Shown: positions 597 through 22,907 of the stretch, piece after piece
How positions within the stretch are numbered: position 1 is the first letter of the stretch
How the letters are laid out: each line of letters opens with the position of its first letter
Source: a virus
IMG/VR virus record: IMGVR_UViG_3300006638_000233
Span: 1-23,395 of that record
DNA length: 23,395 bases
Reading direction: 5' to 3' (one strand)
The notes under the pieces: model-generated
The model's database searches: none
What the model saw: the letters and a program-made list of their open reading frames with translations, nothing else
Told to the model about the DNA's origin: nothing
Program-made: the position numbers and the translations under genes

Positions 597-603
597 GGGG
601 GCC

Positions 604-632
604 AATCTGTAACGATTTTGTAACGACAGATT
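604..632. promoter_or_regulatory. Repeat cluster upstream of the tyrosine integrase
   Basis: Two direct copies of TGTAACGA (608-615 and 619-626) are spaced 11 bases apart, one helical turn. They sit inside a 7-base inverted repeat, AATCTGT (604-610) and ACAGATT (626-632). The cluster begins 8 bases upstream of the integrase start and could be an operator or an arm-type integrase binding site. The role is inferred from spacing and position only. Confidence 0.4.
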
Positions 633-735
633 GCCCAAAACGGCCCCGATGAGAAGCCTCAAGATCGAAAATCTGGTTGAATTGCGGGGAAAGTGCTAGG
701 TTATCTTACCCTGAACGCCAACAAACCCACGAAGT

Positions 736-785
736 CCGGAATCATAATCCTGGGGTCGGGGGTTCGAGTCCCTCTCTCGCTACCA
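736..785 (+). other. 3' fragment of a tRNA-Met(CAT) gene; probable attachment-site core
   Basis: Read as a tRNA, 736-740 is the 5' side of the anticodon stem and 741-747 the loop ATCATAA with anticodon CAT. 748-752 closes the stem with one mismatch. 753-757 is the variable loop, 758-774 a T arm with a TTCGAGT loop, 775-781 the 3' acceptor strand, 782 the discriminator A, and 783-785 an encoded CCA. The sequence upstream of 736 has no D arm or acceptor strand, so the gene is not complete. Tyrosine integrases that use the anticodon loop as crossover leave such a fragment at the far end of an island and rebuild the whole tRNA at the other end. The segment from about 742 is therefore the likely att core. 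No second copy was found in the window. Confidence 0.8.
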
Positions 786-3162: not shown

Positions 3163-3426
3163 ATGACCGACGCCACTACTATCGACGCCACCACCTCGAC
3201 CAACGCACGCCGCACGAAACGCTTACCCGCCGCTGTGCCGCTCGACTTCCCGCACCCCGCCCGCCTGGGCGGCACGCAGCTCTTCGAAGCCGTGCTCGAC
3301 GTTGGCACCTCGACGTTCGCCCGCTGGCGGGCCGAAGGCAAAATCCCCGTACCCGTCATGCAAGGCAAGCTGTGCAAATGGCGCGAGACCGTCATGGCTG
3401 AGCTTCGCGACAACGGCGTGTCTTAG
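3163..3426 (+). CDS. AlpA/excisionase-like helix-turn-helix protein
   Basis: An 87-residue basic protein. The segment VGTSTFARWRAEGKIPVPV, followed by GKLCKWRE, has the layout of AlpA/MerR-like winged helix-turn-helix proteins: a recognition helix that reads as Ser/Thr-x-Phe-x-Arg-Trp, then a wing with a pattern close to Gly-Lys-x-x-Lys-Trp. In prophages and islands such proteins serve as excisionases or activators of the integrase and early genes. An AGGG ribosome-binding site lies about 8 bases before the ATG. It is first in the rightward gene series, which suits an early regulator or directionality factor for the recombinase. Target sites are not identified; the GGACATGTCC palindrome upstream is a candidate. 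Confidence 0.65.
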   Translation: MTDATTIDATTSTNARRTKRLPAAVPLDFPHPARLGGTQLFEAVLDVGTSTFARWRAEGKIPVPVMQGKLCKWRETVMAELRDNGVS

Positions 3427-3518: not shown

Positions 3519-4550
3519 ATGAAGACGACTACACCGACCGCCGAAGAGTTCTTCGCGAGCCACGGCTTCGACGCCAACGCCAATCCCATCAACGCGCCAA
3601 AGGCCGACCACGTCGAAGGCGAGACGATATACGACCTCGACCGCTTTACCAGCGGGCAGCTCGACGACCGCGAACTTAGCCGCGATTGCGTCGAGGATAT
3701 CGAGCAAGCGGCAGCGCGCACCGAAGCGCTCGCCGCGACTTACAAGGCCCAAGGTAAACCTGACCGCGTTAAAGAGTATGAGCAGGACTCGCGGGAACTT
3801 CGACAACTCGCGGCTTTCACTGCCCGAAACACCTTTCGCATTCACGCGCTGTTTTCCGAAGCCTTCGCGCACGCCGTAAATGGGGGCAACTGGCACATTG
3901 CGCAGGCCCACTTAATCGACGCTATCAAATCGGACGAAGCCGACTTCGCCTTGAAGGTTGCCAGCACGAGAGCGCTTGCCGAGATCGCGACCTTTGCGGG
4001 GGATACAGGCAGCGACTTTGACGGACGGTGGTTGTCCGAATTGACTGGCATTCCGTCGAGCACGGCGCGCGAATTGATTGCAGCCGCTCACGCTGTCGAA
4101 AGCGGTGTGGCTGTCATCCTCACGGGCACCGAGCACGGGGGGCGTAAAGCCTTTCTCGAAATAGTCGAGATGACTCCTGCGCGCCGCCGCGCAGTCGTGA
4201 CGGCCGTCAAAACGTGCCTCACGCGCTATCTGCTCGAAAACGCGATTGAGAAAGAGCGCAAGCAACGATCCCGCAACATCTCGATTGCTGAGCTGAACGC
4301 GCTCACGCTGATCGGCTGTAATAACCCGGACGGCTGGCACAAGCTAACGACCCTTGGCATTGACGAAGGCAACGAATGGCTTGTTGCCGCAGTCGACGAA
4401 GCGCTCCGCAAACGCGTGCTTAGCGAACGCACCGAAGCGCGGGCCTCGCAGACGCTCAGTGATTTGAGAAAGCGACTGCACCGTAACGCCGCACCGCGTC
4501 AGTCGAGCCGCCGCAACGCCTACAACTCTAATCGGGAATGCAGCAAGTGA
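3519..4550 (+). CDS. Unknown protein coupled to the replication gene
   Basis: A 343-residue, largely helical, charged protein that I do not recognise. It begins MKTTTPTAEEFF and has no signal peptide or membrane segment. Long helical stretches occupy about residues 55-160, and a basic C terminus (RKRLHRNAAPRQSSRRN) could bind nucleic acid. Its 3' end overlaps the start of the primase-polymerase gene by 13 bases, so the two are almost certainly co-translated and may act together, for example as a loader or regulator of replication. The ribosome-binding site before the ATG is weak. A 6-bp hairpin (CTTCGC...GCGAAG, about 3476-3492) lies in the leader. Confidence 0.8.
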   Translation: MKTTTPTAEEFFASHGFDANANPINAPKADHVEGETIYDLDRFTSGQLDDRELSRDCVEDIEQAAARTEALAATYKAQGKPDRVKEYEQDSRELRQLAAFTARNTFRIHALFSEAFAHAVNGGNWHIAQAHLIDAIKSDEADFALKVASTRALAEIATFAGDTGSDFDGRWLSELTGIPSSTARELIAAAHAVESGVAVILTGTEHGGRKAFLEIVEMTPARRRAVVTAVKTCLTRYLLENAIEKERKQRSRNISIAELNALTLIGCNNPDGWHKLTTLGIDEGNEWLVAAVDEALRKRVLSERTEARASQTLSDLRKRLHRNAAPRQSSRRNAYNSNRECSK

Positions 4551-8695: not shown

Positions 8696-8908
8696 ATGAG
8701 TAAACAAAGCGATGCCCTCGGGTCCGCGCATCATTTCATTGGCGCTGCTTCGATAATTCTTGGGCAGATACATGCAATGCAGACCGATGAAAACGTCGGC
8801 AAGCTGCTCGCTTCCGTGGGTATATGTCTGGAAATGGCAAAGAAGCACGTTTGGAATGCATGCTCTAACCAGCTAGATGCCGATGACGCTGCTCAACGTC
8901 AGCCTTGA
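8696..8908 (+). CDS. Small unknown protein
   Basis: A 70-residue frame with AAGGG about 8 bases before the ATG, 11 bases after the preceding gene. It is predicted helical (HHFIGAASIILGQIHAMQ, VGICLEMAKKHVW) with no membrane-length segment. Its 3' end overlaps the start of the minor tail gene by 32 bases, as in compact phage operons. No function can be read from sequence. Confidence 0.55.
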   Translation: MSKQSDALGSAHHFIGAASIILGQIHAMQTDENVGKLLASVGICLEMAKKHVWNACSNQLDADDAAQRQP

Positions 8909-9488
8909 CACGAAGCAGCTCACCGCCTGGGCAAGCGAGTTGAGCACGAGAGGCATGCGGAATGCCATCCGTCGCGCGGTCGACCAAAGCGCGAGATACG
9001 CCCGCAAGGTAACGATCAAAGTGATTGCCGCCGACATCGGGGTTAGCGCGTCGAAGATCAAAGCCGCCACGCCGAAAATTCAGACGACCACCGCAGGCAA
9101 CCTGTCGGCGCGATGGACGGTCACGAAGATGCGCATCGGCATTCTCGACACCGCTGGCGCGAAGATATCGCGGGCAACCGGATTGCAAGCCTCGACGAAC
9201 AAGGTCACGGGCGGCGGTTCAGCAAGTCTCGACATTAGCAAAGCCTTCGTGCTTCGGCTCAAGAACGGCGCGACGTTCGTCGCGTACCGCAAAGGCAAAG
9301 AGCGTCTGCCGATCAAAGGCGTATACGCCGAACATCCTGCGACCGCATTGGGGCAAGACGGCGCGGCAGCCAACAAGACGTGGAAGCAAGAAGCCGATAA
9401 GCAACTCGCCACGCGTTTGCCAATCGAGATTCAGAAGGCGCTCGTCACCGAGGGCCTATCAGCAAGCACCCCCGACATCGGGGACTGA
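8877..9488 (+). CDS. Phage minor tail protein Z-like
   Basis: A 203-residue protein matching in length and pattern the lambda minor tail protein Z family (about 190 residues), a tail-completion protein at the head-proximal end of the tail. Features typical of the family are the N-terminal helix with RNAIRRAVDQSARYARKVTI and the following VSASKIKAATPKI. A beta-rich middle then leads to LKNGATFVAYRKGKERLPIKGVY. A second ATG at 8883 is an equally possible start because no clear ribosome-binding site is visible. In lambda Z lies after the head genes; here it precedes the terminase, so the module order is changed. Confidence 0.78.
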   Translation: MPMTLLNVSLDTKQLTAWASELSTRGMRNAIRRAVDQSARYARKVTIKVIAADIGVSASKIKAATPKIQTTTAGNLSARWTVTKMRIGILDTAGAKISRATGLQASTNKVTGGGSASLDISKAFVLRLKNGATFVAYRKGKERLPIKGVYAEHPATALGQDGAAANKTWKQEADKQLATRLPIEIQKALVTEGLSASTPDIGD

Positions 9489-10378: not shown

Positions 10379-10885
10379 ATGGGCAGACCCAAAGGCGTCA
10401 TCCGCAAACTAGCCGACGAAGCAGAGCTTGATCCCGCCACCGTGCGCCGCGCGCTCGCTGCGGCCAACGTGACCGAAGGGCAGGCCGAAGCTGATTTCCC
10501 CAAGGCTATCGAGATCGTCAATGCCATGGCGGACAGCGACAGAGTGCTAGGGCACGCTGCAAACGGCAGAGGCGAAGGCGGCACTGAAAGCCCGTATTCC
10601 ACGGCTAGAGCGCAGTCCGAAACGCACCGTGCTCGTAAGCTTGAGCTACAAAATGCCCAGCTCGAAGGACGACTAATCGAACGCGCCTTTGTCGAAGATA
10701 CGACTACTCAAATCCTCGGAGACCTACGCGTAGCGCTAATAGCGGTAGGTGTCCGGCTAGCCCCGCGTGTGGCGGGGGAAAATGACCAGAAGTCCATTGC
10801 CCGGATAATCGAGGACGAGATCAGGAACACGCTGACTGCCTTTGCTGATCCTGACAAGTTCTTCGAACGGGTCGCGATGCTGTAA
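10379..10885 (+). CDS. Terminase small subunit
   Basis: A 168-residue protein directly before the terminase large subunit. The N terminus (MGRPKGVIRKLADEAELD, then PATVRRALAAANV) is a basic helix-turn-helix suited to binding the packaging site, as in lambda Nu1-like proteins. The middle is a long helix (THRARKLELQNAQLEGRLIE) for oligomerisation. The C-terminal part (DEIRNTLTAFADPDKFFERV) would contact the large subunit. The frame is open further upstream, but the ATG at 10379 starts at the conserved-looking helix-turn-helix. The assignment rests on position and domain layout. Confidence 0.75.
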   Translation: MGRPKGVIRKLADEAELDPATVRRALAAANVTEGQAEADFPKAIEIVNAMADSDRVLGHAANGRGEGGTESPYSTARAQSETHRARKLELQNAQLEGRLIERAFVEDTTTQILGDLRVALIAVGVRLAPRVAGENDQKSIARIIEDEIRNTLTAFADPDKFFERVAML

Positions 10886-10926
10886 CGGGCGTGCACGCGC
10901 CAATCTTCACAGGGACTACCAAACCG

Positions 10927-12726
10927 ATGCTCGACAACGCTTTAGCGCGGACGATGCTGCGCGCCTTAGCGCCGCTGCCTCGCATCCGCCCATCCGACTT
11001 TGCTGAGCGCGAATTGCGCCTGCCCGCAAGCTCCAACGCCTTACCGGGTCCGCTTCGCTTGCGAACCTTCCAGCGTGAGATCGTTGACTCAATCCAAGAC
11101 GACGAGGTCGAGACGATTGTCGTCATGGCGGGGTCCCAAGTTGGAAAGTCGCTCGCAATCGAAGCACAGATTATGGCAATGATCGCGACAGCGCCGGGGC
11201 CTTTTATGTATCTGTTGCCCGATACTACGGCCGCCGAGAAGTTGGTTCGCACGCGCTTCGATCCGTTCGTCGCGTCGTCGCCAGTCCTTAAATCGCTGAT
11301 CGGCAAGGCGCACGTCTCGCGAAAAGGCTCAACCGGAGGGGCGAACAGCCTATCCGCAAAAGACTTTCCAGGCGGAAGCCTGACTTTCGCTAGCAGCCAT
11401 AAGCCATCGGAGTTGGCGGCGCAAAGCGTCCGCTGCGTATGGATCGACGAAGCCGACCGTTGCGCGTCCAGTGCGGGCAAAGAGGGCGACCCTGTTCTGC
11501 TGGCAATACAGCGGACGGAGCGATGGGGCCTCAGCGGAAAGAAGATCGTCATTGTTTCTACGCCGACAGGGCGAGACAGCCGGATAGCCAAGTGGTTCGA
11601 ACGTTCAGACAAGCGGCGCTTTTTCGTTTCCTGCCCGGCATGCGCGAAAGATGACCATTTAACGTTCGACAACTTGCATTGGACCAGGGGTAAGCCCGAG
11701 ACTGCCGAATTGCTATGCAAGCATTGCGGCGCGCTCCACTCCGAGTCACAGCGCGCGGCAATGCTCGAAGCAGGCCGTTGGGTTCCGACCAACCCTGACG
11801 GCGAGAAAGGTATTCGCGGTTATCACATTACTGCGTTGGCATCCGAATACTCTTCACTCGAAAGCCTAGCGCGAGCATGGGAAGCGGCGGGGACCGCAGA
11901 AGAGCGACAGGTCTTCTATAACCTGAAGCTTGGCGAACCTTTCGATGCGTCCGTCGACCTTTCGATGACTTCGCTAGAGATTCGCGAGCGCGCTGAGCCG
12001 ATCAGACCGCTGTATTCCGCCGACATCGAGTTTATAACGGCGGGAGTCGATGTCCAAGATGACCGGTTGGAAGTTCAGTTCGTTGCGCATCAGCCCAATG
12101 GCGTTACTACGATTTTGAATCATGACGTGCTGAGGGGCGATACGTTCTCAAGTGCGACATGGGAAAAGCTTGATGCAGCGATAGGCCAAACGTTTCCGCT
12201 CGCGGACGGTCGTCACCTGCCCATATACGTAACCGGCGTGGACAGCGGGCATCGACCGGACCCCGTCATTGACTTCGTATTGGCTCAAGCTCGCAAGTCG
12301 CGCCGCGTCGTGGCTCTCAAAGGCATGGGGGGTTGGTCGCGACCTTTTATTGATCGCGGCGGCAAACTCAAAAAACGCCTCGGCATCTACCTTGTGGGCG
12401 TCGATAGCGTAAAGACATCGATTTATCGTCGTTTGCAAAAACTTGAATACGGGCCTGACTTCATCCATGTGCCGGATCATTTGCCGGACTCATTCTATGT
12501 TGGACTGGCAGGCGAGGTTATCGAAAAGAAGTACGTTCGCGGCTTCGCAAAGTCGTATTACAGAAAGGTCGTCAAAGATAATGAGGCGCTTGACGCTTGT
12601 GTGTACGCGCATGCCGTGGCGGGCCTCGTAGATCGTAAAGCACTAGCCAAATCGTCTGCGCCCGCAATACCTGGACCATCCATAAAAGAGCTGGCGGCGA
12701 AACTGAACGCCGCTCACAACACCTAA
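10927..12726 (+). CDS. Terminase large subunit, lambda gpA type
   Basis: A 599-residue packaging motor and nuclease that pumps DNA into a prohead and cuts it. The ATPase half shows Walker A GSQVGKS (69-75), Walker B VWIDEAD (171-177) and the coupling motif STPT (211-214). A zinc-ribbon insert has CPAC (236-239) and CKHC (264-267), typical of the GpA group. The nuclease half includes TAGVDVQDDRLEVQF and VTGVDSGHR with acidic metal ligands. A GTG at 10891 would add 12 residues; I prefer the ATG at 10927, preceded by AGGGA, though its spacing is long. It appears intact. The gpA group usually packages at cos sites. Confidence 0.93.
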   Translation: MLDNALARTMLRALAPLPRIRPSDFAERELRLPASSNALPGPLRLRTFQREIVDSIQDDEVETIVVMAGSQVGKSLAIEAQIMAMIATAPGPFMYLLPDTTAAEKLVRTRFDPFVASSPVLKSLIGKAHVSRKGSTGGANSLSAKDFPGGSLTFASSHKPSELAAQSVRCVWIDEADRCASSAGKEGDPVLLAIQRTERWGLSGKKIVIVSTPTGRDSRIAKWFERSDKRRFFVSCPACAKDDHLTFDNLHWTRGKPETAELLCKHCGALHSESQRAAMLEAGRWVPTNPDGEKGIRGYHITALASEYSSLESLARAWEAAGTAEERQVFYNLKLGEPFDASVDLSMTSLEIRERAEPIRPLYSADIEFITAGVDVQDDRLEVQFVAHQPNGVTTILNHDVLRGDTFSSATWEKLDAAIGQTFPLADGRHLPIYVTGVDSGHRPDPVIDFVLAQARKSRRVVALKGMGGWSRPFIDRGGKLKKRLGIYLVGVDSVKTSIYRRLQKLEYGPDFIHVPDHLPDSFYVGLAGEVIEKKYVRGFAKSYYRKVVKDNEALDACVYAHAVAGLVDRKALAKSSAPAIPGPSIKELAAKLNAAHNT

Positions 12727-12740
12727 GAGGACACACCAAC

Positions 12741-13121
12741 ATGACTAAGACCACCAAGCTCGCCGCTGTCAGCGGCGATACGAACGCGGCTGTGCTGAGC
12801 GAACGCCTGCGCGTCTCTGCCATTCTGGAATCGGCTGAAGGTAAACGCAACCCGGCCATGGCGAACCAACTTGCGTTGCGCACTTCGCTCGACGCTGAGA
12901 CTGCGCGCGGCATTCTCGCACAAGCGCCGTCATCAAACCCGTACCTCGACGCGATGAATCGCCAAGGCCCGATCAACATCGGCGACGGCATCGGCACGAA
13001 CGTCGAGACGTTCAACAGCGACCCGCGCGCCGCTCGGCTCAAGGAGATCGACGGCAGCATGGCGGCCTTCAACGCCAGCCAGCACGGCACGAGCCGCCGC
13101 ACCCCGAGAGCCCGAGGGTAA
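12741..13121 (+). CDS. Scaffold-like C-terminal fragment of a phage S49 protease, without the protease domain
   Basis: A 126-residue protein with AGAGGA about 10 bases before the ATG. The segment RVSAILESAEGKRNPAMANQ, then LALRTSLDAETARGILAQAP and NPYLDAMNRQGP, closely follows the C-terminal tail of phage S49/ClpP-like prohead proteases, where a scaffold is encoded. The protease domain with its Ser-Lys dyad is absent. The end (RAARLKEIDGSMAAFN) is repeated in the protein at 15133-15900. It lies between the large terminase and the portal, and its stop is one base from the portal start. It may be a free-standing scaffold or a deletion remnant; the intact ribosome-binding site favours a working gene. 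Confidence 0.65.
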   Translation: MTKTTKLAAVSGDTNAAVLSERLRVSAILESAEGKRNPAMANQLALRTSLDAETARGILAQAPSSNPYLDAMNRQGPINIGDGIGTNVETFNSDPRAARLKEIDGSMAAFNASQHGTSRRTPRARG

Positions 13122-13122
13122 C

Positions 13123-14826
13123 ATGCGCAACAAACCCAAAACAGGAAGGGCGAAGGCAGGCACACTCGCAAGGGCGCGTTCTGCCTCGCCGGTAACGGCG
13201 CTCGTGCCGCTGCCGAGCACCGCGCTTGCGCCGATCAGCGGCGTATCGTCGGCGCAGATGGGGTTTCAGGATGGCACTGACGGCAAGCCGTCCCTGACTT
13301 GGTCGCGCTATCAAGGCTCCCCCAGGTTCACGGCTGGTTTCGGCCCGTGGTACGGGGCACCCGGCGCAGAGATCAGCTATGAACGTGCGGTTGCCGCTTC
13401 GGTCACGACTGATTTGCTCACGTCTAACACCATAGTCGCAACGGCCGTCGAAAACTTCGCCACCTACGCAATCGGCGATGGCCTGACACTTTCTGCGCGT
13501 CCGAACCATGAGGCGCTGAATATCAGCCCCGAGGCCGCTCGGGCACTGTCGCACGAGATCGAAACCAAATGGGGGCTATGGGCTAAAAACCCCGTCGAGT
13601 GCGACGCCTCGCAGCGTCACAACGTGCACCAGCTCGCAACCGCTAACTTCAAGTCGTGGCTGCTTACTGGCGAAGGTGTGTTCTTGATGGACTGGCGCAA
13701 AGGCAACGGCGCGGTAACCCACACCAAGGTCAAGCTGATTGACCCGCGCCAAATCGATGCGAGCATCACGCGCGCCACCGATAACGGGAGCATCTTGCAG
13801 GGTGTTCAGTTCGACAAGGTTGGCCGATTACTTGGCTACTGGATTCGGCCGTTCGTGCTGGGCAACTTTTCAAGCGCTCCGCAGCCGGTTTTCGTTGCAG
13901 CCCGCACCTCGTGGGGCCGTGCTCGCGCGATGCATATATTCGACTTGCTCTTGCATGGTCAGGTTCGCGGCCTATCGCCGTTGATTGCAGCGCTGTCGCC
14001 TGCGCACTCAAAGGCAACACTACGTGAGTTCACGCTTGCCAGTGCGTTCATTCAATCAATGACTGCGACCACTATCGAGTCTGACATGCCGACGCGGCAA
14101 GCGCTCGGGCAATTTCAAGTGAACGACCCGTTGCAGGGGTACGCCGATGACGGTGCGTCACCCGAAGCGTGGCTCGCGGCTCGGGGTGCGTTTTACGGCG
14201 AAGCTAAAGTGCAGTTGCAGCCGGGCGTCATCTCGCATCTGGCGCAAGGCGACAAGCTGAAGCTGCACCGTTCCGAGACGCCGAACGCAACGTATGACGC
14301 GTTCGATAGCTCGCTCAGTCGTGAGGCTGCTAAGGCAGCAGGCGGTAGCGCTTCCGATATCTCAGGCGATTATAGCAAGACCTCGTTCTCTGCAAGTCGC
14401 CTGGAGGCCGAGTTACCGTCGCGCATCACTGACCGTCGCCGCATGGCGATTGTTCGGCCGTTCTATCAGACGGTATTCGCGTCGTGGCTCGAAGAGCAAA
14501 TGGAAACGGGGGCGATCAAGCTGCCGGACGGTGCCCCCGAGTTTTGGGAGGCAAAGGACGCCTATAGCAACGCCATCTGGCGCGGCAAGGGCAAGCCCAC
14601 ATCCGACCCGCTGAAGACCGCGCAAGCGGACGTGCTCGAATTGGAAAGCGGTCTGACTACGCTCGAAGCCAAGCTCGGGGAACGCGGCCTGGACTTCGAA
14701 GAGGTCATCGCGCAGCGCAAGTCCGAGCGCGAAGCACTCGCAGCGGCTGGCCTGCCTTACCTTATGCCGAAGACACAAGCGACGTTGATTGCCACTAACA
14801 GCGACGATGACGACGCGCTGAAATAA
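13123..14826 (+). CDS. Phage portal protein, lambda gpB type
   Basis: A 567-residue portal protein, close to the usual 500-550 of the lambda family. It forms the ring at the capsid vertex through which DNA passes and to which the terminase docks. Family features are an N-terminal region with NTIVATAVENFATYAIGDGL, the wing/stem part (VKLIDPRQIDASI) and the motif LQPGVISHLAQGDKLKLHRS. SSDISG/DYSKTSFSASRLE, typical of the crown region, precedes a charged C terminus. GAGGG lies 5 bases before the ATG. A 51-base piece (14194-14244, YGEAKVQLQPGVISHLA) recurs in altered form in the gene at 15133-15900. Confidence 0.9.
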   Translation: MRNKPKTGRAKAGTLARARSASPVTALVPLPSTALAPISGVSSAQMGFQDGTDGKPSLTWSRYQGSPRFTAGFGPWYGAPGAEISYERAVAASVTTDLLTSNTIVATAVENFATYAIGDGLTLSARPNHEALNISPEAARALSHEIETKWGLWAKNPVECDASQRHNVHQLATANFKSWLLTGEGVFLMDWRKGNGAVTHTKVKLIDPRQIDASITRATDNGSILQGVQFDKVGRLLGYWIRPFVLGNFSSAPQPVFVAARTSWGRARAMHIFDLLLHGQVRGLSPLIAALSPAHSKATLREFTLASAFIQSMTATTIESDMPTRQALGQFQVNDPLQGYADDGASPEAWLAARGAFYGEAKVQLQPGVISHLAQGDKLKLHRSETPNATYDAFDSSLSREAAKAAGGSASDISGDYSKTSFSASRLEAELPSRITDRRRMAIVRPFYQTVFASWLEEQMETGAIKLPDGAPEFWEAKDAYSNAIWRGKGKPTSDPLKTAQADVLELESGLTTLEAKLGERGLDFEEVIAQRKSEREALAAAGLPYLMPKTQATLIATNSDDDDALK

Positions 14827-14839
14827 CGAAAGCACCACT

Positions 14840-15133
14840 ATGAACAACTGCATACCTCCCGGCGTTGCGCCGGTTGTAGACGACCCGTGCGCGTGGCTCG
14901 GGCAACTGCGAGCGGCGCTATACGCGCTGCTCGCCGGGCAGGCGAATTACGAAGTTCGCAACGGCGACCAATGGCTGACCTATCAGCGCGCCGATACCGC
15001 GAGGCTTCAGCATGAAGTTCGCCGACTGGAAATGATTTGCGACCCTAGCGCCAATCACGGGCGCGCAATCCGAGTCGGTCCATACATTCCCGTTAACGCG
15101 CCATACGGGCGCAATCGCACGAGGCTCTTATAA
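14840..15133 (+). CDS. gpW-like head-tail joining protein
   Basis: A 97-residue protein whose central part (LRAALYALLAGQANYEVRNG, then QWLTYQRADTARLQHEVRRLE) aligns well by eye with lambda gpW: helix, two beta strands, helix. gpW sits beneath the portal and stops DNA leaking before the tail joins. The N terminus is extended compared with the 68-residue lambda protein. It follows the portal here, whereas lambda W precedes it. The stop overlaps the next start (TAATG). No strong ribosome-binding site is visible, so coupling with the portal gene is likely. Confidence 0.6.
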   Translation: MNNCIPPGVAPVVDDPCAWLGQLRAALYALLAGQANYEVRNGDQWLTYQRADTARLQHEVRRLEMICDPSANHGRAIRVGPYIPVNAPYGRNRTRLL

Positions 15134-15900
15134 TGACTGCCAAACAAGTCGCCTGGGTTCATCCCAACCCGTTGCTCGCGCGCTTCGATGTCGTGTTGCC
15201 GGATGGCTACGTGATGACCCGAAAGGAAGCAGTCGCCAAAGGCTTCGCCGTAACGTCGTGGCCTGAAGGCGAACGAACAGCCACGCCGCACCCGCACGAG
15301 CCGGGTTCGGTCGTCTTGTCGCGCGGTCAGGTCGTGTCGCTCGATACGGCCAAGAGCGCGGGCTTTACCGTGTCCGCCCGCGCACCTGAGATAACGGCTG
15401 ATCCTAACCGCTCGTGGCGCTCTGCCATCCTGAGTTCGCCTGAAGCGCGCGACCGGGCGTCCGCGACTGTCGAGCTTGTCACCACTCAATCACCCACAAC
15501 CATGCCGGTTGAAAATGCTCGTGCTTTTTTGCGTGGGCTACCGGTCGAGCAAATCGAGGAAGAAACCACCATGACGACCGATACCAACGCCAACCCCGAG
15601 CGCGCCGCGCGCCTTGCCGAAATCAACGGCGGGATGCAGGCCTTCAATAAGCAGCGAGGGTACGGGGAAGCCAAGGTGCTGCTACGGCCGGGCGTCGTTT
15701 CGCGCCTCGCGGCTGACGTGGACGAGACGAAGCTTCGCCGCTTATCGCAAATCCGGCTGAACGCCCTGGAAAACGGCACGGCGCACGAAGCGAGCGCAGG
15801 CGAAACCAAAAAGCTCCGCTACGCACTGAGCGTCACCGGCATGGCGCTATCGGACGTGTTCGCTCAGCTCAGCGTCGATACGTCGAAGCTCCGCATCTAA
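15133..15900 (+). CDS. Scaffold-like patchwork protein
   Basis: A 255-residue protein, coupled to the previous gene (TAATG) and with GAGG 10 bases upstream. Residues 1-90 (FDVVLPDGYVMTRKEAVAKG and so on) are unrecognised. About 95-140 (SWRSAILSSPEARDRASATV, then VENARAFLRGLP) repeat the S49-protease tail seen in the protein at 12741-13121. About 153-173 (NPERAARLAEINGGMQAFN) match the end of that same protein. Residues 177-193 (YGEAKVLLRPGVVSRLA) match a portal segment at 13 of 17 positions. A well-placed internal start divides it near residue 147. It occupies the place where protease, scaffold and capsid genes would be expected. Scaffold function is inferred. Confidence 0.6.
   Translation: MTAKQVAWVHPNPLLARFDVVLPDGYVMTRKEAVAKGFAVTSWPEGERTATPHPHEPGSVVLSRGQVVSLDTAKSAGFTVSARAPEITADPNRSWRSAILSSPEARDRASATVELVTTQSPTTMPVENARAFLRGLPVEQIEEETTMTTDTNANPERAARLAEINGGMQAFNKQRGYGEAKVLLRPGVVSRLAADVDETKLRRLSQIRLNALENGTAHEASAGETKKLRYALSVTGMALSDVFAQLSVDTSKLRI
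15571..15900 (+). CDS. Possible nested in-frame gene (Nu3-like internal start)
   Basis: Within the 15133-15900 frame, the ATG at 15571-15573 is preceded by GAGGAAGAA (15556-15564) at good spacing and would give a 109-residue protein starting MTTDTNANPERAARLAEING. In lambda the scaffold Nu3 is made from an internal in-frame start in the protease gene C, and this layout is the same. Both the long and short forms may be made. The evidence is only the ribosome-binding site and the analogy. Confidence 0.4.
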   Translation: MTTDTNANPERAARLAEINGGMQAFNKQRGYGEAKVLLRPGVVSRLAADVDETKLRRLSQIRLNALENGTAHEASAGETKKLRYALSVTGMALSDVFAQLSVDTSKLRI

Positions 15901-15929
15901 CCAGCCACCTCGCATAAGGATACACCACC

Positions 15930-16280
15930 ATGACTACCGAAATTTTCAAGCTCTCCCGCCCGATCAAGACGCACAACGGCGAGCTGACCGCCTTGACGCT
16001 GCAAGAGCCCACCATCAGCTCGTTCATTAAGCACGGCGAGCCCTTTAAGCTCAGATCCATCAAGGTCGAGGACGGCGAGCCCGCGAAAGCTGAGTTCGTG
16101 TACGACAATAACAAAGCACTCATGGGCTTTCTCGTAGATATGGTCGTCGAAAAGGGAGTCGATGACATTATTCTCGGCTCAATCCCCTCCAGCGAATTCC
16201 ACAGCCTTCGAAGCGTTGCATCCGTCATCATTTTGGCAGGAGTGCAGGACAAAAATTTTACAAATCCGTCCGACGCCTAA
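15930..16280 (+). CDS. Tail assembly chaperone (Mu gp41/P2 E-like), unshifted product
   Basis: A 116-residue protein with AAGGA about 9 bases before the ATG. Its opening (FKLSRPIKTHNGELTALTLQ, then EPTISSFIKHGEP) is the signature of the tail assembly chaperone family that includes Mu gp41 and P2 gpE. These small proteins coat the tape measure protein while the tail tube forms. The gene directly precedes the tape measure gene and ends in a slippery heptamer, as these chaperones usually do. It tells us the tail is of the long type, although tail tube and tip genes are absent from the window. Confidence 0.82.
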   Translation: MTTEIFKLSRPIKTHNGELTALTLQEPTISSFIKHGEPFKLRSIKVEDGEPAKAEFVYDNNKALMGFLVDMVVEKGVDDIILGSIPSSEFHSLRSVASVIILAGVQDKNFTNPSDA

Positions 16281-16429
16281 TCGGCTGCTTGCTTAGCGAC
16301 CATGGACTTAGCGTCTCCGACGTTGAGTCCATGCGTCTCGGACGGTTCATGGAATACGTTGAAATTTTTGCGGACCTTGCGAAGATTCGCAAGCCCCCGA
16401 AACCCACAGGTATAAGGGCAAATGTCTAA
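15930..16429 (+). CDS. Tail assembly chaperone, -1 frameshifted long product
   Basis: A -1 shift at 16253-16259 would bypass the stop at 16278-16280 and join residues 1-110 to 56 more (YKSVRRLIGCLLSDHGLSVS, then MRLGRFMEYVEIFADLAKIR), making 166 residues. The extension stays open for its whole length. It has no start codon or ribosome-binding site suited to independent translation near its beginning, and ends 8 bases inside the tape measure gene. This is the standard E/E' arrangement of P2-like and G/GT of lambda-like tails. The shift efficiency cannot be judged from sequence. Confidence 0.75.
16253..16259 (+). promoter_or_regulatory. Slippery heptamer A AAT TTT for -1 frameshifting
   Basis: In the chaperone frame the bases read A-AAT-TTT, an exact X XXY YYZ slippery heptamer, 19 bases before the zero-frame stop. 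A perfect 8-bp stem (CATGGACT at 16301-16308 with AGTCCATG at 16326-16333) lies 41 bases downstream. That is farther than the usual 5-9 base spacing of stimulatory structures, so its part in shifting is uncertain. Confidence 0.75.
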
Positions 16430-18563
16430 CCCTTCAGTCACCGCTACCATCACAGCGGACGATCAAGCTTCGCCGAAAATACGCGAGCTATTGACGCTCT
16501 TGCAGAAGGTAGGCGCAAGCGCAAAGTCGCTCCTTAACGAGGGCGGTGTAGGCGGTGCGTATGCGAACAGCTTCACGAGCGCCAACTCGGCTGCGAAAGA
16601 GCATCTAACGATCCTCGAAAAAATCCACAAAATGCGTTCCGCTATCGGCGGAACGGTCGCGGGCGTAGTGGGGGCCAAGGCGCTACAAACTGCAAGCGCA
16701 TCGTTTACGAATTACCTCCCGTATGAGCGGGATGTCCGGTATCAGAAAGCCATTCAGGGCTACAGCAGCTCGGACATGGCGTTGCTGGAACGTCAACGCG
16801 TGAACGCTGCGACCGTGTATGGGCTCAAGCCGGAAGACACCTTGCATGCACAGCAAGCGTTCGTCACCCGGAACTTCTCCGCTCCGATCACTGAAGCCGC
16901 AACGAAACAGGCCATCGTACTCTCGAAGGCGCTAAACGTTCAGACCGACGAAGCCGCAAGAATCGTCGAGGGCTTGACGTTCGGTCAGGGTATTCATCTG
17001 CACAGTCCGGCGGACGCTTCACGAGAGATCAGGAAGTCTGTCGACTTGGCGGCTATCGCCTCGAAGGCTGGCGCGATGACGCCGGAAGACATTCAGGCGT
17101 TTGGCAAGTTCGGTATCGGCATGTCCACCGCTGCCGGTATCGACGCTCAGCAAGCGTTCGCAGCAGCGATGACGCTGAAGCGCGCCAATGTTGGGGGCGA
17201 CGAGTCAGGCGTCTTCATGCGGCAGATGTCAGCTCGCCTGCTCGCACCGACGAAACAGGCCTATGAAGCCTTCGCGCACATGGGCATAAATTATGCCGAC
17301 TTTGCGCCCCAGGGCAATGTCACACCCGATGCTATCGACGCCTCGCTGAAGCGCCGTTACGGCAAGAGCCTCGGGGACGCAGGGAAGGCGAACCTTTCTG
17401 CCGCGTTCGAGGACGAATCGCGCAACGTGCTCAGCAATCGGGAAGACTTTGCGTCTGCGGTTCGCGAAGCCATTGAGGCGGGCGGCGAGAAGCTTTCGAA
17501 GACGGATCAAAAGCACGTCACCGATACGGCGCTTCGGCAGTACGATCTGGCGAAGGGCGCATTGAACGGCGGCGCGCTGTTCGATCAGATTCTCAGCAAG
17601 GCCAGCCCGCGCGACATGCAGGCGATCATTGGCGACAAGCAAGGCGGTCGGGCCGTCATGTTGCTCAATGCGCTCGACCAGTACCGGGAGTATCTTGAGA
17701 AGCTGAAGCACGGCGACGGCTTTGCCGAGAACATCGCGGCGCAACGTATGCAGGGCCTTGCGGCCTCAGTCGATAGGTTGACCGCTTCGATTGACGTTGC
17801 GGAGAAGCAAGTCGTCGCGGCTAATCAGGGTTGGCTAACACAGCTCTCTAACGCAGCGGGCAAACTCGCTGCGACGTTCACGGGCCTTTCGGAATCGCAA
17901 AAGGAAGCCGCAGGCATCGCGGCGGGCACAGCGAGCGTAGCGGGAACGGCAGCAGCGGGCGCAACGTTGCTCCGCGTTGCAGCGGCCTTTACCGGGCTCG
18001 AAGCTTTCCTAACCGGCGCGGCGCTGCTGAGCGGTGGTGCCGCAATCGCGGCCTTCGTGGCGGCGGCGGTCGCGGCGACCAGCATGCTCTACAGCCTAGC
18101 CGGGGACAAGATACTCCCCGAAGGCGCGAAGCATTCGACCCCCGCTGAATTGGGAAGGCGACGCAATCTGTTCAACTCGTCGCTCGACGACTTAGTGGAC
18201 GTTAGCGGGCCGTTCGATAAGTACCAAGCGGCACAGGCTCCGAGACTTCGAGGCCGCACTGCCGAGTACCTCAGCGCGCTCAGGGCCGACGACGGGCAAA
18301 GCGCAGGCTGGCAGGACTCGGCGAAAGTGAACGTCGGAAAATCGGACGGTTTCAAAGACGTTGAAGTCAGCGGCACGGTATCGGGCAGCGCGGAGCTTCA
18401 CACCAGCATCGATGTTCGGCCGACTGCCTACTTCGAGTCATTGGTGAAGCAAGCGCAAGCCGTCGTGAACATGGGGTTGAACGGCAAGTTGGGCACCAGC
18501 ATGGGCGGCCCCGGCGACAACTCCGTCAAACCCTCAGCGCCCGCACTTGCGGGCGGACATTAA
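16422..18563 (+). CDS. Phage tail tape measure protein
   Basis: A 713-residue protein directly after the tail assembly chaperone, with AAGGG before the ATG. It sets tail length and passes into the host with DNA. The N-terminal part (VTATITADDQASPKIRELLT) begins like other tape measure proteins. The long middle is helical and rich in Ala, Gln and Lys. Residues about 486-560 are strongly hydrophobic (AAFTGLEAFLTGAALLSGGA, AIAAFVAAAVAATSMLY), as in the membrane-active part of these proteins. The C terminus is polar and glycine-rich. At this length a Mu/P2-scale tail would be implied (roughly 1.5 angstrom per residue is the known rule). It appears intact. Confidence 0.88.
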   Translation: MSNPSVTATITADDQASPKIRELLTLLQKVGASAKSLLNEGGVGGAYANSFTSANSAAKEHLTILEKIHKMRSAIGGTVAGVVGAKALQTASASFTNYLPYERDVRYQKAIQGYSSSDMALLERQRVNAATVYGLKPEDTLHAQQAFVTRNFSAPITEAATKQAIVLSKALNVQTDEAARIVEGLTFGQGIHLHSPADASREIRKSVDLAAIASKAGAMTPEDIQAFGKFGIGMSTAAGIDAQQAFAAAMTLKRANVGGDESGVFMRQMSARLLAPTKQAYEAFAHMGINYADFAPQGNVTPDAIDASLKRRYGKSLGDAGKANLSAAFEDESRNVLSNREDFASAVREAIEAGGEKLSKTDQKHVTDTALRQYDLAKGALNGGALFDQILSKASPRDMQAIIGDKQGGRAVMLLNALDQYREYLEKLKHGDGFAENIAAQRMQGLAASVDRLTASIDVAEKQVVAANQGWLTQLSNAAGKLAATFTGLSESQKEAAGIAAGTASVAGTAAAGATLLRVAAAFTGLEAFLTGAALLSGGAAIAAFVAAAVAATSMLYSLAGDKILPEGAKHSTPAELGRRRNLFNSSLDDLVDVSGPFDKYQAAQAPRLRGRTAEYLSALRADDGQSAGWQDSAKVNVGKSDGFKDVEVSGTVSGSAELHTSIDVRPTAYFESLVKQAQAVVNMGLNGKLGTSMGGPGDNSVKPSAPALAGGH

Positions 18564-18580
18564 CGAAAGGAATGGGGTAT

Positions 18581-19006
18581 ATGTTATTCCCAGGATCAGA
18601 CTGGCGCGCGGGCATGCAGAAGGTCAGCGCGGCAATCGACGACACGATGGGCGGGCTTGTCTTGGTGACGCCCGCCACCGTGCCGAAGGTTAACTTCCCG
18701 AGCGTTGAAGACCCGTCGAAGGCGATCACCGTAACTGCGGTGTTCACGTCGAAGGCCGAAACCATCGTGATGGGTGAAGGCAGAAGCGGCGGGCATTCGG
18801 TCAGCCCGCTCATTTCGACGAGCAAGCCTGTCTTTCAGTTCAGCTACGCCGTGCTGCACGGGATGCCGTTCAGGCTCCAGCAATCCTACCGCATCACGCG
18901 CCTTTGCAGCGGGGAGCGGTTCGAAGTGACGGACATCAAGCCGGACGGCGTTTCGCGTGTTACTGTGAGCGTCGTGCAACTAGGTCGTCAATCGGAGTTC
19001 AGATAA
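18581..19006 (+). CDS. Possible head-tail joining protein (lambda FII-like)
   Basis: A 141-residue protein. The ATG at 18581 is chosen over the in-frame ATG at 18572 because AAAGGA (18566-18571) lies about 9 bases before it but touches the other. The end (GERFEVTDIKPDGVSRVTVS) has the beta-strand pattern with Pro-Asp-Gly turn seen in lambda FII-type head-tail joining proteins. The rest (ITVTAVFTSKAETIVMGEG and others) is beta-rich. Its position after the tape measure gene is unusual for FII, so a tail-associated beta-rich protein is an alternative. The stop overlaps the next start (TAATG). Confidence 0.5.
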   Translation: MLFPGSDWRAGMQKVSAAIDDTMGGLVLVTPATVPKVNFPSVEDPSKAITVTAVFTSKAETIVMGEGRSGGHSVSPLISTSKPVFQFSYAVLHGMPFRLQQSYRITRLCSGERFEVTDIKPDGVSRVTVSVVQLGRQSEFR

Positions 19007-19314
19007 TGCAGGGCATACCTCGCGTACACTACCAGCCCCGTCAGTCAGCGACGTACGAAGCGCCGCTCGACATTCTGATTCCGGCGTTGATGAAACTGCG
19101 CGAATGCAATGACAGCCTCAAAGCTCTCGTGCTCGTCGATTCATTGCCGGATATCATTCTGCCTGCGCTCGCTTATGCCGCCTCGCAGAAAACCTACGTC
19201 CCGACCGTCGCGGTCAAGACCGTCGTGAAGTGGTGCGGCCCCGATTTCCTGGTCCGCACCTTGGGCCGTGAACGTGCTCGAAACTTGCAGGCCCGCTACG
19301 TTCAAGCGGCGTAA
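19006..19314 (+). CDS. Unknown phage-region protein
   Basis: A 102-residue protein translationally coupled to the previous gene (TAATG). The middle is hydrophobic and helical (APLDILIPALMKLRE, LVDSLPDIILPALAYAASQK). The end is basic (RTLGRERARNLQARYV). It is too polar for a holin and lacks membrane-length segments. No family is recognised. It is the last gene of the rightward structural operon, so a tail or neck role is possible but not shown. Confidence 0.65.
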   Translation: MQGIPRVHYQPRQSATYEAPLDILIPALMKLRECNDSLKALVLVDSLPDIILPALAYAASQKTYVPTVAVKTVVKWCGPDFLVRTLGRERARNLQARYVQAA

Positions 19315-19991: not shown

Positions 19992-20828
19992 TCATAAAGG
20001 GGCTGTTCGGAGAACACTTAACTGTTTGTCGCGTATCCTCCCCGTGACAACAAGGTATCGCGGCATTCCCATGAATGCGAATAAGCGTATGCCGATTAGC
20101 AAATGCGGCACGCCCTTTACGATACAGGCCTGCGGATAAACGTCGTGAAGGACGCCTGGCTGATCGACGAGTGGAGCGCCACTTTTGTCGCCTCCCACGA
20201 AATGTGGGGCTTGGACATTCCTTCCAAGGATCAAATCCGGCAACAGCGGTTCAAAGGCCGCCTCTCCAAAGCGCGCGACTGCATAACTGTGGGCGATCTT
20301 CGCTAGCATTCTAGCGTAGTCGAGAGGGCGCGTTCTAGCTATCTTGATCGCTTCGCCATCTCGCAAATATTTTTCGATCTCACCTTTTGGGTGTCGGACG
20401 ATCAGCTCTCCCACAAATTCCGTCGCGGGCTCGACGTGGCGAAGAAAACCAGCCTCTTCCCAATTAAAGCCCAAACAGGACGTTGGAAATTCCTCTAACG
20501 GAACGACCTTGTTTTCTGTGCGGCCATCCACACGAAACACAATCATCTGGTCGACGGTAGATTTTGGCTTTCTTCGTGTCTTCAGTTTTAGCTTCGCGCG
20601 AAAAGGCCCTAGAGTGCCTTGAAGACAAGACCCTTCAAACCCTTTTGTGATATTGGCACACTTGTCGCAACTTGCCTTCGGCAAAAACCAATCACCACCT
20701 TTTGGCTGAAGGCCATAAGGGATAATGTGCTCGTCGGAAAGACTCTCCGTTGATCCGCAATAGATGCAACGCCCAACGGGGGGATATTTGTCCGCGTCCC
20801 AACGCCCGAAAACATCGGGTGAAGTCAC
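19992..20828 (-). CDS. HNH endonuclease family protein
   Basis: A 278-residue protein with an N-terminal HNH zinc-finger nuclease domain. It has CIYC at 21-24, the core SDEHIIPYGL with His34, and CDKC at 54-57 followed by Asn59 and TKGFEG. The next stretch (LGPFRAKLKLKTRRKPKST) and the longer C-terminal region match in style a widespread family of HNH proteins in islands and prophages. The natural substrate of the family is not known to me. Translation starts at GTG (20826-20828), overlapping the stop of the preceding gene by 4 bases, so it depends on coupling. It could cut foreign or cellular DNA; a phage packaging role is less likely because it is on the opposite strand and far from the terminase. 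Confidence 0.8.
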   Translation of the reverse strand: MTSPDVFGRWDADKYPPVGRCIYCGSTESLSDEHIIPYGLQPKGGDWFLPKASCDKCANITKGFEGSCLQGTLGPFRAKLKLKTRRKPKSTVDQMIVFRVDGRTENKVVPLEEFPTSCLGFNWEEAGFLRHVEPATEFVGELIVRHPKGEIEKYLRDGEAIKIARTRPLDYARMLAKIAHSYAVARFGEAAFEPLLPDLILGRNVQAPHFVGGDKSGAPLVDQPGVLHDVYPQACIVKGVPHLLIGIRLFAFMGMPRYLVVTGRIRDKQLSVLRTAPL

Positions 20829-21046
20829 GGGACAAATGTCCAGTCGCTAATATCCTCAGGGATACCTAGCCCGGAAGGGTTTCCGAACGAGGGCCAAGTG
20901 CAAGTGCCGTTCGCAAGCTCTTCGGCTGCCGCCGCAGGAGACGCGTGATTCTCAAGAGCCTGTCCGTCGAACATAAGCGCGAAGCCGCCCCGCTGCGGTA
21001 TAATCTCCGCAAGTCCCTCGCGCGTTCTGAATATCCATTTCGCCAT
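20825..21046 (-). CDS. Small protein coupled to the HNH endonuclease
   Basis: A 73-residue acidic protein with TAGGGG 6 bases before its ATG and a 4-base overlap with the HNH start. It has regularly spaced tryptophans and a strand-rich opening (MAKWIFRTREGLAEIIPQRG, then GFALMFDGQALENHASPAA). It ends PEDISDWTFVP. No family is recognised with certainty. The one-to-one coupling, small size and acidity would suit an inhibitor or adaptor for the nuclease, but that is inference from arrangement alone. Confidence 0.7.
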   Translation of the reverse strand: MAKWIFRTREGLAEIIPQRGGFALMFDGQALENHASPAAAAEELANGTCTWPSFGNPSGLGIPEDISDWTFVP

Positions 21047-21055
21047 ATTAAACCC

Positions 21056-21271
21056 CTAGCCCGTGTAAGTTTTAAATCTTCCGTGTCGAACGCCGCGCAA
21101 ATAGCCGCGCGACACACTCGCCTCAATCTCCGCTTCTAAAAATTCGTTCGCAACAATCAACGCCTTCACGGCTTCGCGCGCGTCACCGCCGCATGCCGCT
21201 ATCGCCTGATCGGCCGCCGCGTCAAGTTGGTCCGCATCCGGTTGCGGATTGGGCGCGGTTGCTTCAGGCAT
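21056..21271 (-). CDS. Conserved small alphaproteobacterial protein
   Basis: A 71-residue protein, first in the leftward three-gene operon. The segment LDAAADQAIAACGGDAREAV, then KALIVANEFLEAEIEASVSRGY, is one I associate with a small conserved hypothetical family common in rhizobial genomes. It is helical, with no membrane segment. Its stop codon lies next to the ribosome-binding site of the next gene, 9 bases away, so the operon is tight. Function is unknown. Confidence 0.75.
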   Translation of the reverse strand: MPEATAPNPQPDADQLDAAADQAIAACGGDAREAVKALIVANEFLEAEIEASVSRGYLRGVRHGRFKTYTG

Positions 21272-21285
21272 CGGGATTGTCCGTG

Positions 21286-21327
21286 TTGACTAGTTCGAAT
21301 GTTCTCATTACGTTCTAAGCAAGTCAA
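21286..21327. promoter_or_regulatory. Overlapping divergent promoters
   Basis: On the + strand TTGACT (21286-21291), 17 bases, then TACGTT (21309-21314) would serve the exported-protein gene at 21359. On the - strand TTGACT (21327-21322), 17 bases, then GAACAT (21304-21299) would serve the operon starting at 21271. The -35 boxes are good and the -10 boxes weak. The two overlap, so one polymerase would exclude the other. Confidence 0.4.
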
Positions 21328-21358
21328 GATTGCATTCTGCGATAGGTGGGGACCGTTG

Positions 21359-21673
21359 GTGAAAAAATGCATTTTGATTGTTCTGTTCGCGAGCGGCTGC
21401 ACAAACGGTGCTTTCGCAGACCCCGTTCGTGATCCGAGTGGGACAGACTCGTTTTTCGCGCTTGGCTGGGCCGCTGCCGCAGACAAGCGGTGTGAGCTGA
21501 AAACCTATCGTATTGTTCTACAGCTAGCTAAATCGCGAGGGCTTGTGGAAAACGAAATCGCACAGAACGTTTCGAAGATTGTCGAGGCTGCTCTGCAAGC
21601 CGACGACGAAATAAAAACGACGGGCGTCAGTCAATGGTGTGCGAACTATCGTCGCGGCGCGCTTGGTGGGTAG
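21359..21673 (+). CDS. Small exported protein
   Basis: A 104-residue protein from a GTG at 21359, with AGGTGGGG upstream. An in-frame ATG at 21299 is rejected because it lies within the predicted promoter and would spoil the signal peptide. The N terminus (KKCILIVLFASGCTNGAFA) has two lysines, a hydrophobic core and an AFA cleavage site before DPVRD. The SGC motif could instead be a poor lipobox. The mature part is about 84 residues with two cysteines (KRCELK and SQWCANY) that could form a disulfide in the periplasm. No family is recognised. It stands alone, convergent with the metallopeptidase gene. Confidence 0.65.
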   Translation: MKKCILIVLFASGCTNGAFADPVRDPSGTDSFFALGWAAAADKRCELKTYRIVLQLAKSRGLVENEIAQNVSKIVEAALQADDEIKTTGVSQWCANYRRGALGG

Positions 21674-21713
21674 TTCAAGTGGGGAGAATTCGCATCCGCA
21701 TCGGGCGAGCCGC

Positions 21714-22886
21714 TCAGAACAGTGGAAGCCGGTCGTCGAGATCGCTAGTCGACCCTGTAGGACGCATGCCTTCGTGATGAAGCTTCAATATATGCGGGCG
21801 AACTTCGACCCAAATCATTTCAAGGATTTCGCAGAAAGCAGACCGTCTAGTGGCTAGTTCAGGTCGAATAACCTCCGGCGCAATGGCATCCAATCTTCCG
21901 ATATAGTCGATGCGATCTCGGAATGGGGGATGATGCTCACGGGGTGGAGCAATGTCCGCCCCCGTCCGCAGTACAGCAGATGCACGCCTTACCAGATCAA
22001 GTGAACCAAGGATGAGAACCGCGCCAACCCCCGACATAGCATACACATCGTACATGGGCTTATCAATCGCACCCAACATGCACATAGTCTGGCCAAATAT
22101 GTCTGCGCCGTGCTCCTGATCGAATGCATCTTCCTCGACGGCCGTTGAATCGACTAGACCGTGGGCTAAAACGTGATGCCCGTACTCGTGACCGATGGAA
22201 AAAAGTTCGACAGCTTGGAGCAAAAGGGTTCTGATAGTGCCCTCTTCTTTGCCAAGCGATGGCTCAATGAAATTTATAGGCCAAACGTTTCCTCCAAAAT
22301 CTCTGAAAATATCAACCCAAATTTGGATGATGTACGGCTCTTCGTCAAGTTTCCGCCGAATAGAGTCAGGCCGATTGTCCACGGCAACTCGATTTTCGTG
22401 CTGAAAATAAACGAGCGTTTTTGCCATGGCTTTAGCGATGGCGTTACAGAAGACAAAGAAGGGAAGCGAAAGACCCAATATGCTGGCGTCGGTTGTTAGC
22501 ACCGGCATTTGGGTTGCGATCAATAGCGGCGTTGGCGTTACACCAAACACCATGCCGTTTTTGATTGGGATTTCGTTTTTTCGGCAGATTTCCTCGATCT
22601 CTCGCAGCACCCGAGCCATGATATGCAGGGCGTGAGGATCGTCATATTCCGATGCCAGGGCGATTGTAGCTATGCTGTCCTTGTACTCCTGAATGAAACC
22701 GGGCAGCTCGTCTTCCGTCGCGCCACCCGCCTTCGCGGCCTGCTCCAATACTTGTGGGTTGTCTAAAAGCCACTGAACGTGCCGCTCAGGCTGAATTGGA
22801 GGCACGCCGTTTTTCTGTGCTTCACTAGCCTGCCGTTGGCGGCGATAGTCTTCAGCCACCCTTCGTTCTTCGTCGTTAGTGGCCAT
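21714..22886 (-). CDS. M48-like zinc metallopeptidase (HEYGH)
   Basis: A 390-residue protein. The ATG at 22884-22886 is chosen because AGGAG lies 5 bases before it; the frame extends 7 codons further to 22907. The zinc site is FSIGHEYGHHVLAH, an HEXXH helix with His233 and His237 and Glu234 as catalytic base. The third ligand is probably Glu258 in FDQEHGADIFG, 21 residues on. The later HHPPFRDRI resembles the His-Pro...Arg motif of M48 peptidases. No signal peptide is seen. One hydrophobic stretch (about 135-160, ILGLSLPFFVFCNAIAKAMA) could contact a membrane. The family fold is gluzincin; substrate is unknown. It is a lone cargo gene between the exported protein and the transposase remnant. 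Confidence 0.75.
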   Translation of the reverse strand: MATNDEERRVAEDYRRQRQASEAQKNGVPPIQPERHVQWLLDNPQVLEQAAKAGGATEDELPGFIQEYKDSIATIALASEYDDPHALHIMARVLREIEEICRKNEIPIKNGMVFGVTPTPLLIATQMPVLTTDASILGLSLPFFVFCNAIAKAMAKTLVYFQHENRVAVDNRPDSIRRKLDEEPYIIQIWVDIFRDFGGNVWPINFIEPSLGKEEGTIRTLLLQAVELFSIGHEYGHHVLAHGLVDSTAVEEDAFDQEHGADIFGQTMCMLGAIDKPMYDVYAMSGVGAVLILGSLDLVRRASAVLRTGADIAPPREHHPPFRDRIDYIGRLDAIAPEVIRPELATRRSAFCEILEMIWVEVRPHILKLHHEGMRPTGSTSDLDDRLPLF

Positions 22887-22907
22887 TACGACTCCTACGG
22901 GGCTCAA

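Follow-up and report, generated by a model that had tools for sequence, protein, structure and literature searches.

To our knowledge, phage satellites either borrow a whole head from their helper or carry a whole head of their own. P4- and SaPI-type satellites take capsid protein from the helper and change the size of the shell by means of a scaffold or a size-redirecting protein. Sid of P4 and TcaP of the phage-inducible chromosomal island-like elements (PLEs) exemplify satellite scaffolds that can resize a borrowed coat (PMC10945586). PLEs, found in Vibrio cholerae, also encode a tape measure protein (TMP) and a tail assembly chaperone (TAC) and build chimeric tails with helper proteins; deletion of the PLE tmp gene lowers transduction by 96–99.9% (PMC12987554). 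Capsid-forming phage-inducible chromosomal islands (cf-PICIs), as described in PMC10690885, harbor terminase, portal, connector, and sometimes protease genes together with their own capsid gene and borrow tails; putative tmp genes occur in some of them (PMC12987554, Extended Data Fig. 10). The IMG/VR virus record IMGVR_UViG_3300006638_000233 (23,395 bases; the whole stretch that was analyzed, hereafter the window) is very probably a member of a new family of integrative phage satellites of Alphaproteobacteria that encodes its own low-copy particle parts and obtains the bulk subunits from a helper. In the open-access papers searched, no satellite with its own portal and terminase yet without a capsid protein was found, nor any satellite in Bradyrhizobium or other Rhizobiales.

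The late genes of the family are arranged in the order gpZ–TerS–TerL–scaffold 1–portal–(S49 protease)–gpW–scaffold 2–TAC–TMP–FII–ORF102, where TerS and TerL are the small and large terminase subunits and S49 is present in some relatives (Table 1). Family searches of the window detect no capsid, protease domain, tube, tip, or lysis gene. PF05065 has no match in five virus records including that of the window and none inside the elements, and PF03864 has no match in the genomes of L009–L011. Unassigned gaps in the late block are all 150 bp or less, except for 890 bp ahead of terS, and therefore there is no room in the block for a capsid gene. A first-pass annotation of the window, made from the letters alone, had anticipated much of this: the missing capsid, protease, tube, tip, and lysis genes, the close packing where head genes would be expected, and the intact terminase, portal, gpW-like, Z-like, chaperone, tape measure, and FII-like genes, all of which are recovered by family searches with whole reading frames. 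The range that it gave (10379–19314) contains the late genes it named except the gpZ-like gene, which falls outside at 8877–9488. Its head-gene inventory was right that the window has no protease but overlooked two scaffold-type proteins as well as a protease kept in some relatives.

Relatives L002 and L004–L008 come from searches of viral contigs and genomes, and further ones from Bradyrhizobium neotropicale (isolate BR 10247), Rhodoblastus acidophilus (isolate MO), both with a complete element, and an Afipia metagenome-assembled genome (MAG). Four carriers occur among 392 genomes of the bacterial family (G254, G339, G371, and G144), in which G334, G337, G246, and G296 hold only TMP pieces. 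One carrier (G463) is from a 397-genome sample of the bacterial order, and L077 was found through the cos pattern described below alone. In genomes or metagenomes of Bradyrhizobium, Afipia, Rhodoblastus, and their relatives, 12 further loci keep the late block at 22–75% amino acid identity, and none holds a gene for a major capsid protein, tube, sheath, baseplate, tip, or lysis. The same gene order, with no capsid gene, is seen in every locus that covers the block; 12 besides the window cover it fully. Two of the 12, L004 and G399, are near-identical, with 96–99% identity in late-block DNA, yet their integrases belong to different subfamilies (L004:16681–17862 and L050:8192–9472), indicating that the integration module has been swapped between elements.

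In the portal tree, the 14 satellite portals cluster together with support 100/99, and the five prophage portals fall outside. The next nearest portals, at 30–36% identity, are those of prophages, and G443, G652, and the more distant G144b carry PF03864-type capsid genes. A TMP tblastn search against phage records returned no match. The first-pass annotation had proposed a search for conserved copies with the same gaps and had named close relatives with a capsid gene as its refutation. The 12 loci are such copies, and no capsid gene occurs among relatives of at least 42% portal identity in which the block is covered; the capsid-bearing relatives lie outside the clade.

Eight relatives are complete elements at tRNA genes, bounded by direct repeats of 12–49 bp that include the tRNA 3′ end, next to which lies an integrase of the tyrosine or serine type depending on the member. 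They measure 21,723 bp (tRNA-Lys), 23,406 bp (Pro), 23,703 bp (Glu), 22,973 bp (Arg), 21,611 bp (Pro), 23,766 bp (Ser, repeat of only 14 bp), 21,945 bp (Met, repeat of only 12 bp), and 23,978 bp (Cys, repeat of only 15 bp). One metagenome contig, G399 (22,413 bp), is circularly closed, and its ends meet within 4 bp inside the gene for scaffold-type protein 2 (scaf2) of the co-linear L004. It has a single attachment (att) site, attP, consisting of a 46-bp tRNA-Pro core between the integrase and helix-turn-helix (HTH) genes, and the same core flanks the integrated G339 copy. Whether G399 represents an excised circle, a tandem, or a packaged concatemer, its unit is complete and lacks a capsid gene. 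The eight elements and the circle (n = 9) range from 21.6 to 24.0 kb with a mean of 22.8 kb and a standard deviation of 0.9, which is the tight spread that a packaging limit would give. The family thus consists of integrative elements with an integrase and att repeats (eight relatives; attP in G399), and neither the att-bounded elements nor the circle has detected capsid, tube, sheath, tip, or lysis genes.

The late genes are under purifying selection. For the pair L005 and L007 (synonymous divergence, dS, 0.35–1.1), the ratio of nonsynonymous to synonymous substitution (dN/dS) is 0.04–0.14 in nine module genes; scaf2 and TAC are too similar in this pair for the calculation. The test of selection suggested by the first-pass annotation therefore reveals no relaxation, the frames are intact, and neither of the marks of a defective prophage, relaxed selection or broken genes, was found. 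The genes for scaf2 and TAC are nearly identical between L005:7012–8122 and L007:8723–9833 (synonymous difference, pS, 0.01), whereas dS in the neighboring genes is about 0.45, which points to recent exchange or recombination there.

Two further features of the block are conserved. A −1-frame extension of the chaperone, with a conserved amino acid pattern and an end at or shortly before the TMP start, is present in all 11 elements tested. A known case of this arrangement is lambda G/GT. Ahead of terS, nine divergent elements share a cos-like consensus composed of GGGTCC, about 25 bp, GCGGGCCGCTGCCGC (with variants in some), and then ATAGCAGAGAA. The exact pattern occurs once in the window, never in shuffles, and in 5 of 2.9 million viral contigs, four of which are family members. 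The fifth, L079, was set aside as a probable chance match inside the coding sequence of an unrelated phage-like cluster. The TMP itself has 713–776 residues in 13 loci and 840 in G463.

Scaffold-type protein 1 (scaf1) was found in 12 of 12 genomes or records tested and is homologous to the separate scaffold gene of prophage G144b. Its gene occupies the position that W has in lambda. The part of S49 head proteases to which it is homologous is their C-terminal scaffold region, so that a scaffold appears to survive in the window although the protease does not. A separate S49 protease lies between portal and gpW in L004, L006, and G399 and is absent from the window, L005, and L007. The family can thus dispense with the protease, whereas both scaffold-type proteins are kept. 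Scaf2 is strongly diverged in G144a and G463, and as a sole query it has no match among viral contigs. Its N-terminal part (window 15133–15480) harbors a repeated motif, VVLPDGYVMTRKEAVAKGF / VVLSRGQVVSLDTAKSAGF, which is present in a single copy in L004 and L006.

Table 1. Features of the window, in order of position (ORF, open reading frame; pLDDT, predicted local distance difference test).
Feature	Position	Strand	Evidence
Left attachment site, 3′-terminal 48 nt of a tRNA-Met gene	738..785	+	Identical to 3′ end of intact tRNA-Met adjoining Ser recombinase of relative G003 (Afipia MAG)
Large serine recombinase (integrase), abuts left att	742..2334	-	PF00239, PF07508, PF13408; phrog_95 integrase 3e-87
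Small HTH / AlpA-Xis-like regulator	3163..3426	+	PF12728 and phrog_66, both weak; homologue in same position in G399
Early-region protein, 343 aa	3519..4550	+	No phrog match; similarly placed G399 ORF has weak CI-type HTH
Prim-Pol + AAA helicase replication protein	4538..6778	+	PF09250 3e-19, PF13481 2e-27; homologues in most complete relatives
gpZ-like tail-completion / neck protein	8877..9488	+	PF06763, phrog_27 3e-17
Candidate cos (packaging) site, GGGTCC-N25-GCGGGCCGCTGCCGC ... CGATAGCCGAGAA	10285..10372	+	Aligned upstream of terS in divergent elements
Terminase small subunit TerS	10379..10885	+	phrog_57 8e-17
Terminase large subunit TerL, GpA type	10891..12726	+	PF05876, PF20454
Scaffold-type protein 1 (scaf1), 126 aa	12741..13121	+	phrog_53 positions 341-466 of 583, the C-terminal scaffold part of phage S49 head protease
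Portal protein, lambda family	13123..14826	+	PF05136 1e-62; satellite portals one clade
gpW-type head-tail adaptor	14840..15133	+	phrog_75 2e-5
Scaffold-type protein 2 (scaf2), 255 aa	15133..15900	+	Two N-terminal hairpin repeats and helical domain paralogous to scaf1; alignments A2, A4
Tail assembly chaperone (TAC)	15930..16280	+	phrog_166 8e-4; PF10109 below cut-off; kept across family
-1-frame chaperone extension (TAC-T type), ends at TMP start	16217..16429	+	Open, conserved amino acid pattern
Tail tape measure protein (TMP), 713 aa	16422..18563	+	PF10145 6e-13, phrog_28 9e-16
FII-type head-tail stopper	18572..19006	+	PF05354 3e-4, below cut-off; homologous to FII of G144b
ORF102, conserved five-helix protein ending late block	19006..19314	+	Alignment A5; AlphaFold2 pLDDT 81
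Cargo region: HNH protein, U41-like peptidase, small ORFs	19992..22907	.	PF14279, PDLC03011

From the att site, the window runs through the serine recombinase, the small HTH gene, the Prim-Pol/AAA gene, the late block, and cargo that extends almost to the record's end. The element begins at the left att site and continues beyond the end of the record; because the right att site lies outside it, the window holds most but not quite the whole of one element. An open frame outside the att site (3–662, minus strand) has no family match and perhaps belongs to a neighboring element or the chromosome. The model of ORF102 has no Foldseek match in PDB or BFVD. Cargo gene content varies between relatives and includes defense genes in some of them. 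Between the late block and the integrase, L005:12249–14032, L031:3722–6883, and L028:959–1810 hold cargo that changes from relative to relative; it includes DarT/DarG, a restriction enzyme of type IIG, and a trypsin-type protein resembling PDC-S45. The window protein at 21714–22907 (minus strand) has a zinc-protease-like HEYGHH motif and a weak match to the PADLOC peptidase_U41 model. An Rfam search of the window gave no match.

The element has no genes for many-copy shell and tube parts, tip, or lysis; most simply, these would come from a helper. The element would replicate with its own Prim-Pol/helicase, and its terminase would recognize its own cos site before terS and package through its own portal. 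The portal and the two scaffold-type proteins would nucleate a shell of helper capsid protein sized for about 23 kb, while TAC, the −1-frameshifted TAC-T, and the TMP would nucleate a tail for which the helper provides tube, sheath, and baseplate. Head and tail would be connected by gpW, FII, and gpZ. The satellite would thereby give the low-copy parts that initiate, measure, and join, and the helper the high-copy blocks, tip, and lysis.

The helper probably has a contractile tail and a capsid of the lambda E type. A candidate for the helper type is prophage G144b, which shares a chromosome with satellite G144a and encodes a PF03864 capsid protein, a sheath-like protein that points to a contractile tail, the scaf1 homologue, and distant homologues of portal, S49, FII, TAC, and TMP. 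On the basis of the length of its TMP (845 aa, compared with 713–776 in most satellites), satellite tails are predicted to be some 10–20 nm shorter.

Several points weigh against the satellite reading. That the capsid is borrowed, which phage acts as helper, and how large the particles are all have the standing of predictions. The portal and TMP of the satellites share only about 26% identity with their G144b counterparts, and interface compatibility is therefore only presumed. A co-resident prophage that might supply the capsid, for which the first-pass annotation advised looking, exists in G144 as G144b; the other six of the seven carriers tested have no PF03864 capsid, and one in seven, against 36 of 392 family genomes, is no enrichment. 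Among the five outgroup prophages, not all of which are fully annotated, a capsid gene is verified in three (G144b, G443, and G652). The site before terS corresponds in place to lambda cos, and its cos function is predicted, as are the scaffold roles of scaf1 and scaf2, in both cases from homology and position.

An alternative is that the locus is an interference island whose phage-like proteins are decoys that poison the assembly of an invader, the element itself moving by other means. The DarTG and type IIG restriction enzyme in the cargo of relatives would suit such an island, and one satellite protein is already known to block the assembly of phage tails (PMC12987554). A terminase, cos-like site, portal, neck proteins, and excision and replication genes exceed the needs of a decoy, and the size of the elements is tight, making this explanation improbable; interference may instead be a by-product.

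Slightly less credible still is that the element does encode a capsid protein, in unrecognizable form. Several early and cargo ORFs (343–424 aa) have no family match. However, these large ORFs sit in regions other than the late block, where there is no room, the cargo varies between members, and the sister phages carry ordinary PF03864 capsids. Scaf2 was considered as a hidden capsid and rejected, since its AlphaFold2 model has no capsid-like architecture, although the confidence of the model is low (predicted template modeling score 0.26).

Just as doubtful is a satellite that uses the helper's portal and TMP and whose own copies only regulate or compete with helper assembly. Most known satellites take the whole tail from the helper, and many take the portal too. 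However, PLE particles hold the satellite TMP and exclude that of the helper (PMC12987554), and in the present family the portal is kept together with its own terminase and cos-like site.

A decayed prophage, in which deletions removed the capsid, tube, and tip genes of a full phage and the remainder persists by chance, is the least plausible: the genes are phage-derived and similar modules occur with a capsid gene in the full prophages G144b, G443, and G652, but the same architecture at 42–75% portal identity across species, tRNA sites, and metagenomes, the intact frames, low dN/dS, conserved frameshift and cos-like site, att-bounded and circular copies, and tight size range led to its rejection. 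The first-pass annotation had weighed decay against a satellite with a borrowed capsid; the satellite is supported, and its borrowing of a capsid is deduced.

A satellite that divides the particle with its helper is thus favored. On balance, and with modest confidence, the family appears to follow one rule, namely, to encode all low-copy parts that start, measure, and join and to borrow all mass-produced parts.

Smaller tRNA-bound elements in the same bacterial family carry a TMP gene, with no terminase, portal, or capsid gene seen in their partial annotation. P371 (L062:2835–17820, G371 contig 23; 14,932 bp, tRNA-Pro) resides in the same genome as satellite G371 and encodes an integrase, an HTH protein, an AAA protein, S49, and a 690-aa protein, both ends of which match the TMP of prophage G144b. 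The element in G173 (23,688 bp) has S49 and a TMP, and that in G213 (18,469 bp) has a chaperone-like protein and a TMP. If these smaller elements with a protease-scaffold and/or chaperone plus TMP are what they seem, reprogramming of head size and tail length would be a common satellite strategy there.

The family would divide the particle at a different place from described satellites, keeping the parts that decide which DNA is packaged, the shell size, and the tail length. If so, it extends the 2026 report of chimeric PLE tails to other hosts and to the head and offers a natural experiment on the proteins that determine the size of the capsid and the length of the tail. Such elements escape searches for satellites and proviruses that rely on the capsid.

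Like PLEs, the present elements are integrative, have their own TMP and TAC (a resemblance in function), and have their own scaffold, which in PLEs remodels the helper coat. They differ in adding their own TerS/TerL, portal, gpW, FII, gpZ, and cos-like site, in having scaffolds of the protease-scaffold type, and in their unrelated hosts. In common with cf-PICIs, they encode TerS, TerL, portal, and connectors. In contrast, cf-PICIs encode a major capsid protein, which is lacking here; therefore, the family is not a cf-PICI, though its packaging side would work alike. The MulchRoom and MiniFlayer satellites of Streptomyces likewise have their own terminase, portal, scaffold, and adaptor, but encode a capsid protein and no tail components except a fiber in MiniFlayer (PMC10690885). 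The prophages G144b, G443, G601, and G652 of the same bacterial order share homologous TerL and portal proteins (G144b also S49, FII, TAC, and TMP), yet they are phages, with portals at most 36% identical to those of the satellites. Satellites of the P4 and SaPI types have no TerL, portal, adaptors, or TMP of their own, and P4-like elements, marked by the genes alpha, psu, delta, and sid, rely on the terminase of the helper, whereas the present family has its own TerS/TerL; no sid or psu family match was seen, no search having been aimed at these genes.

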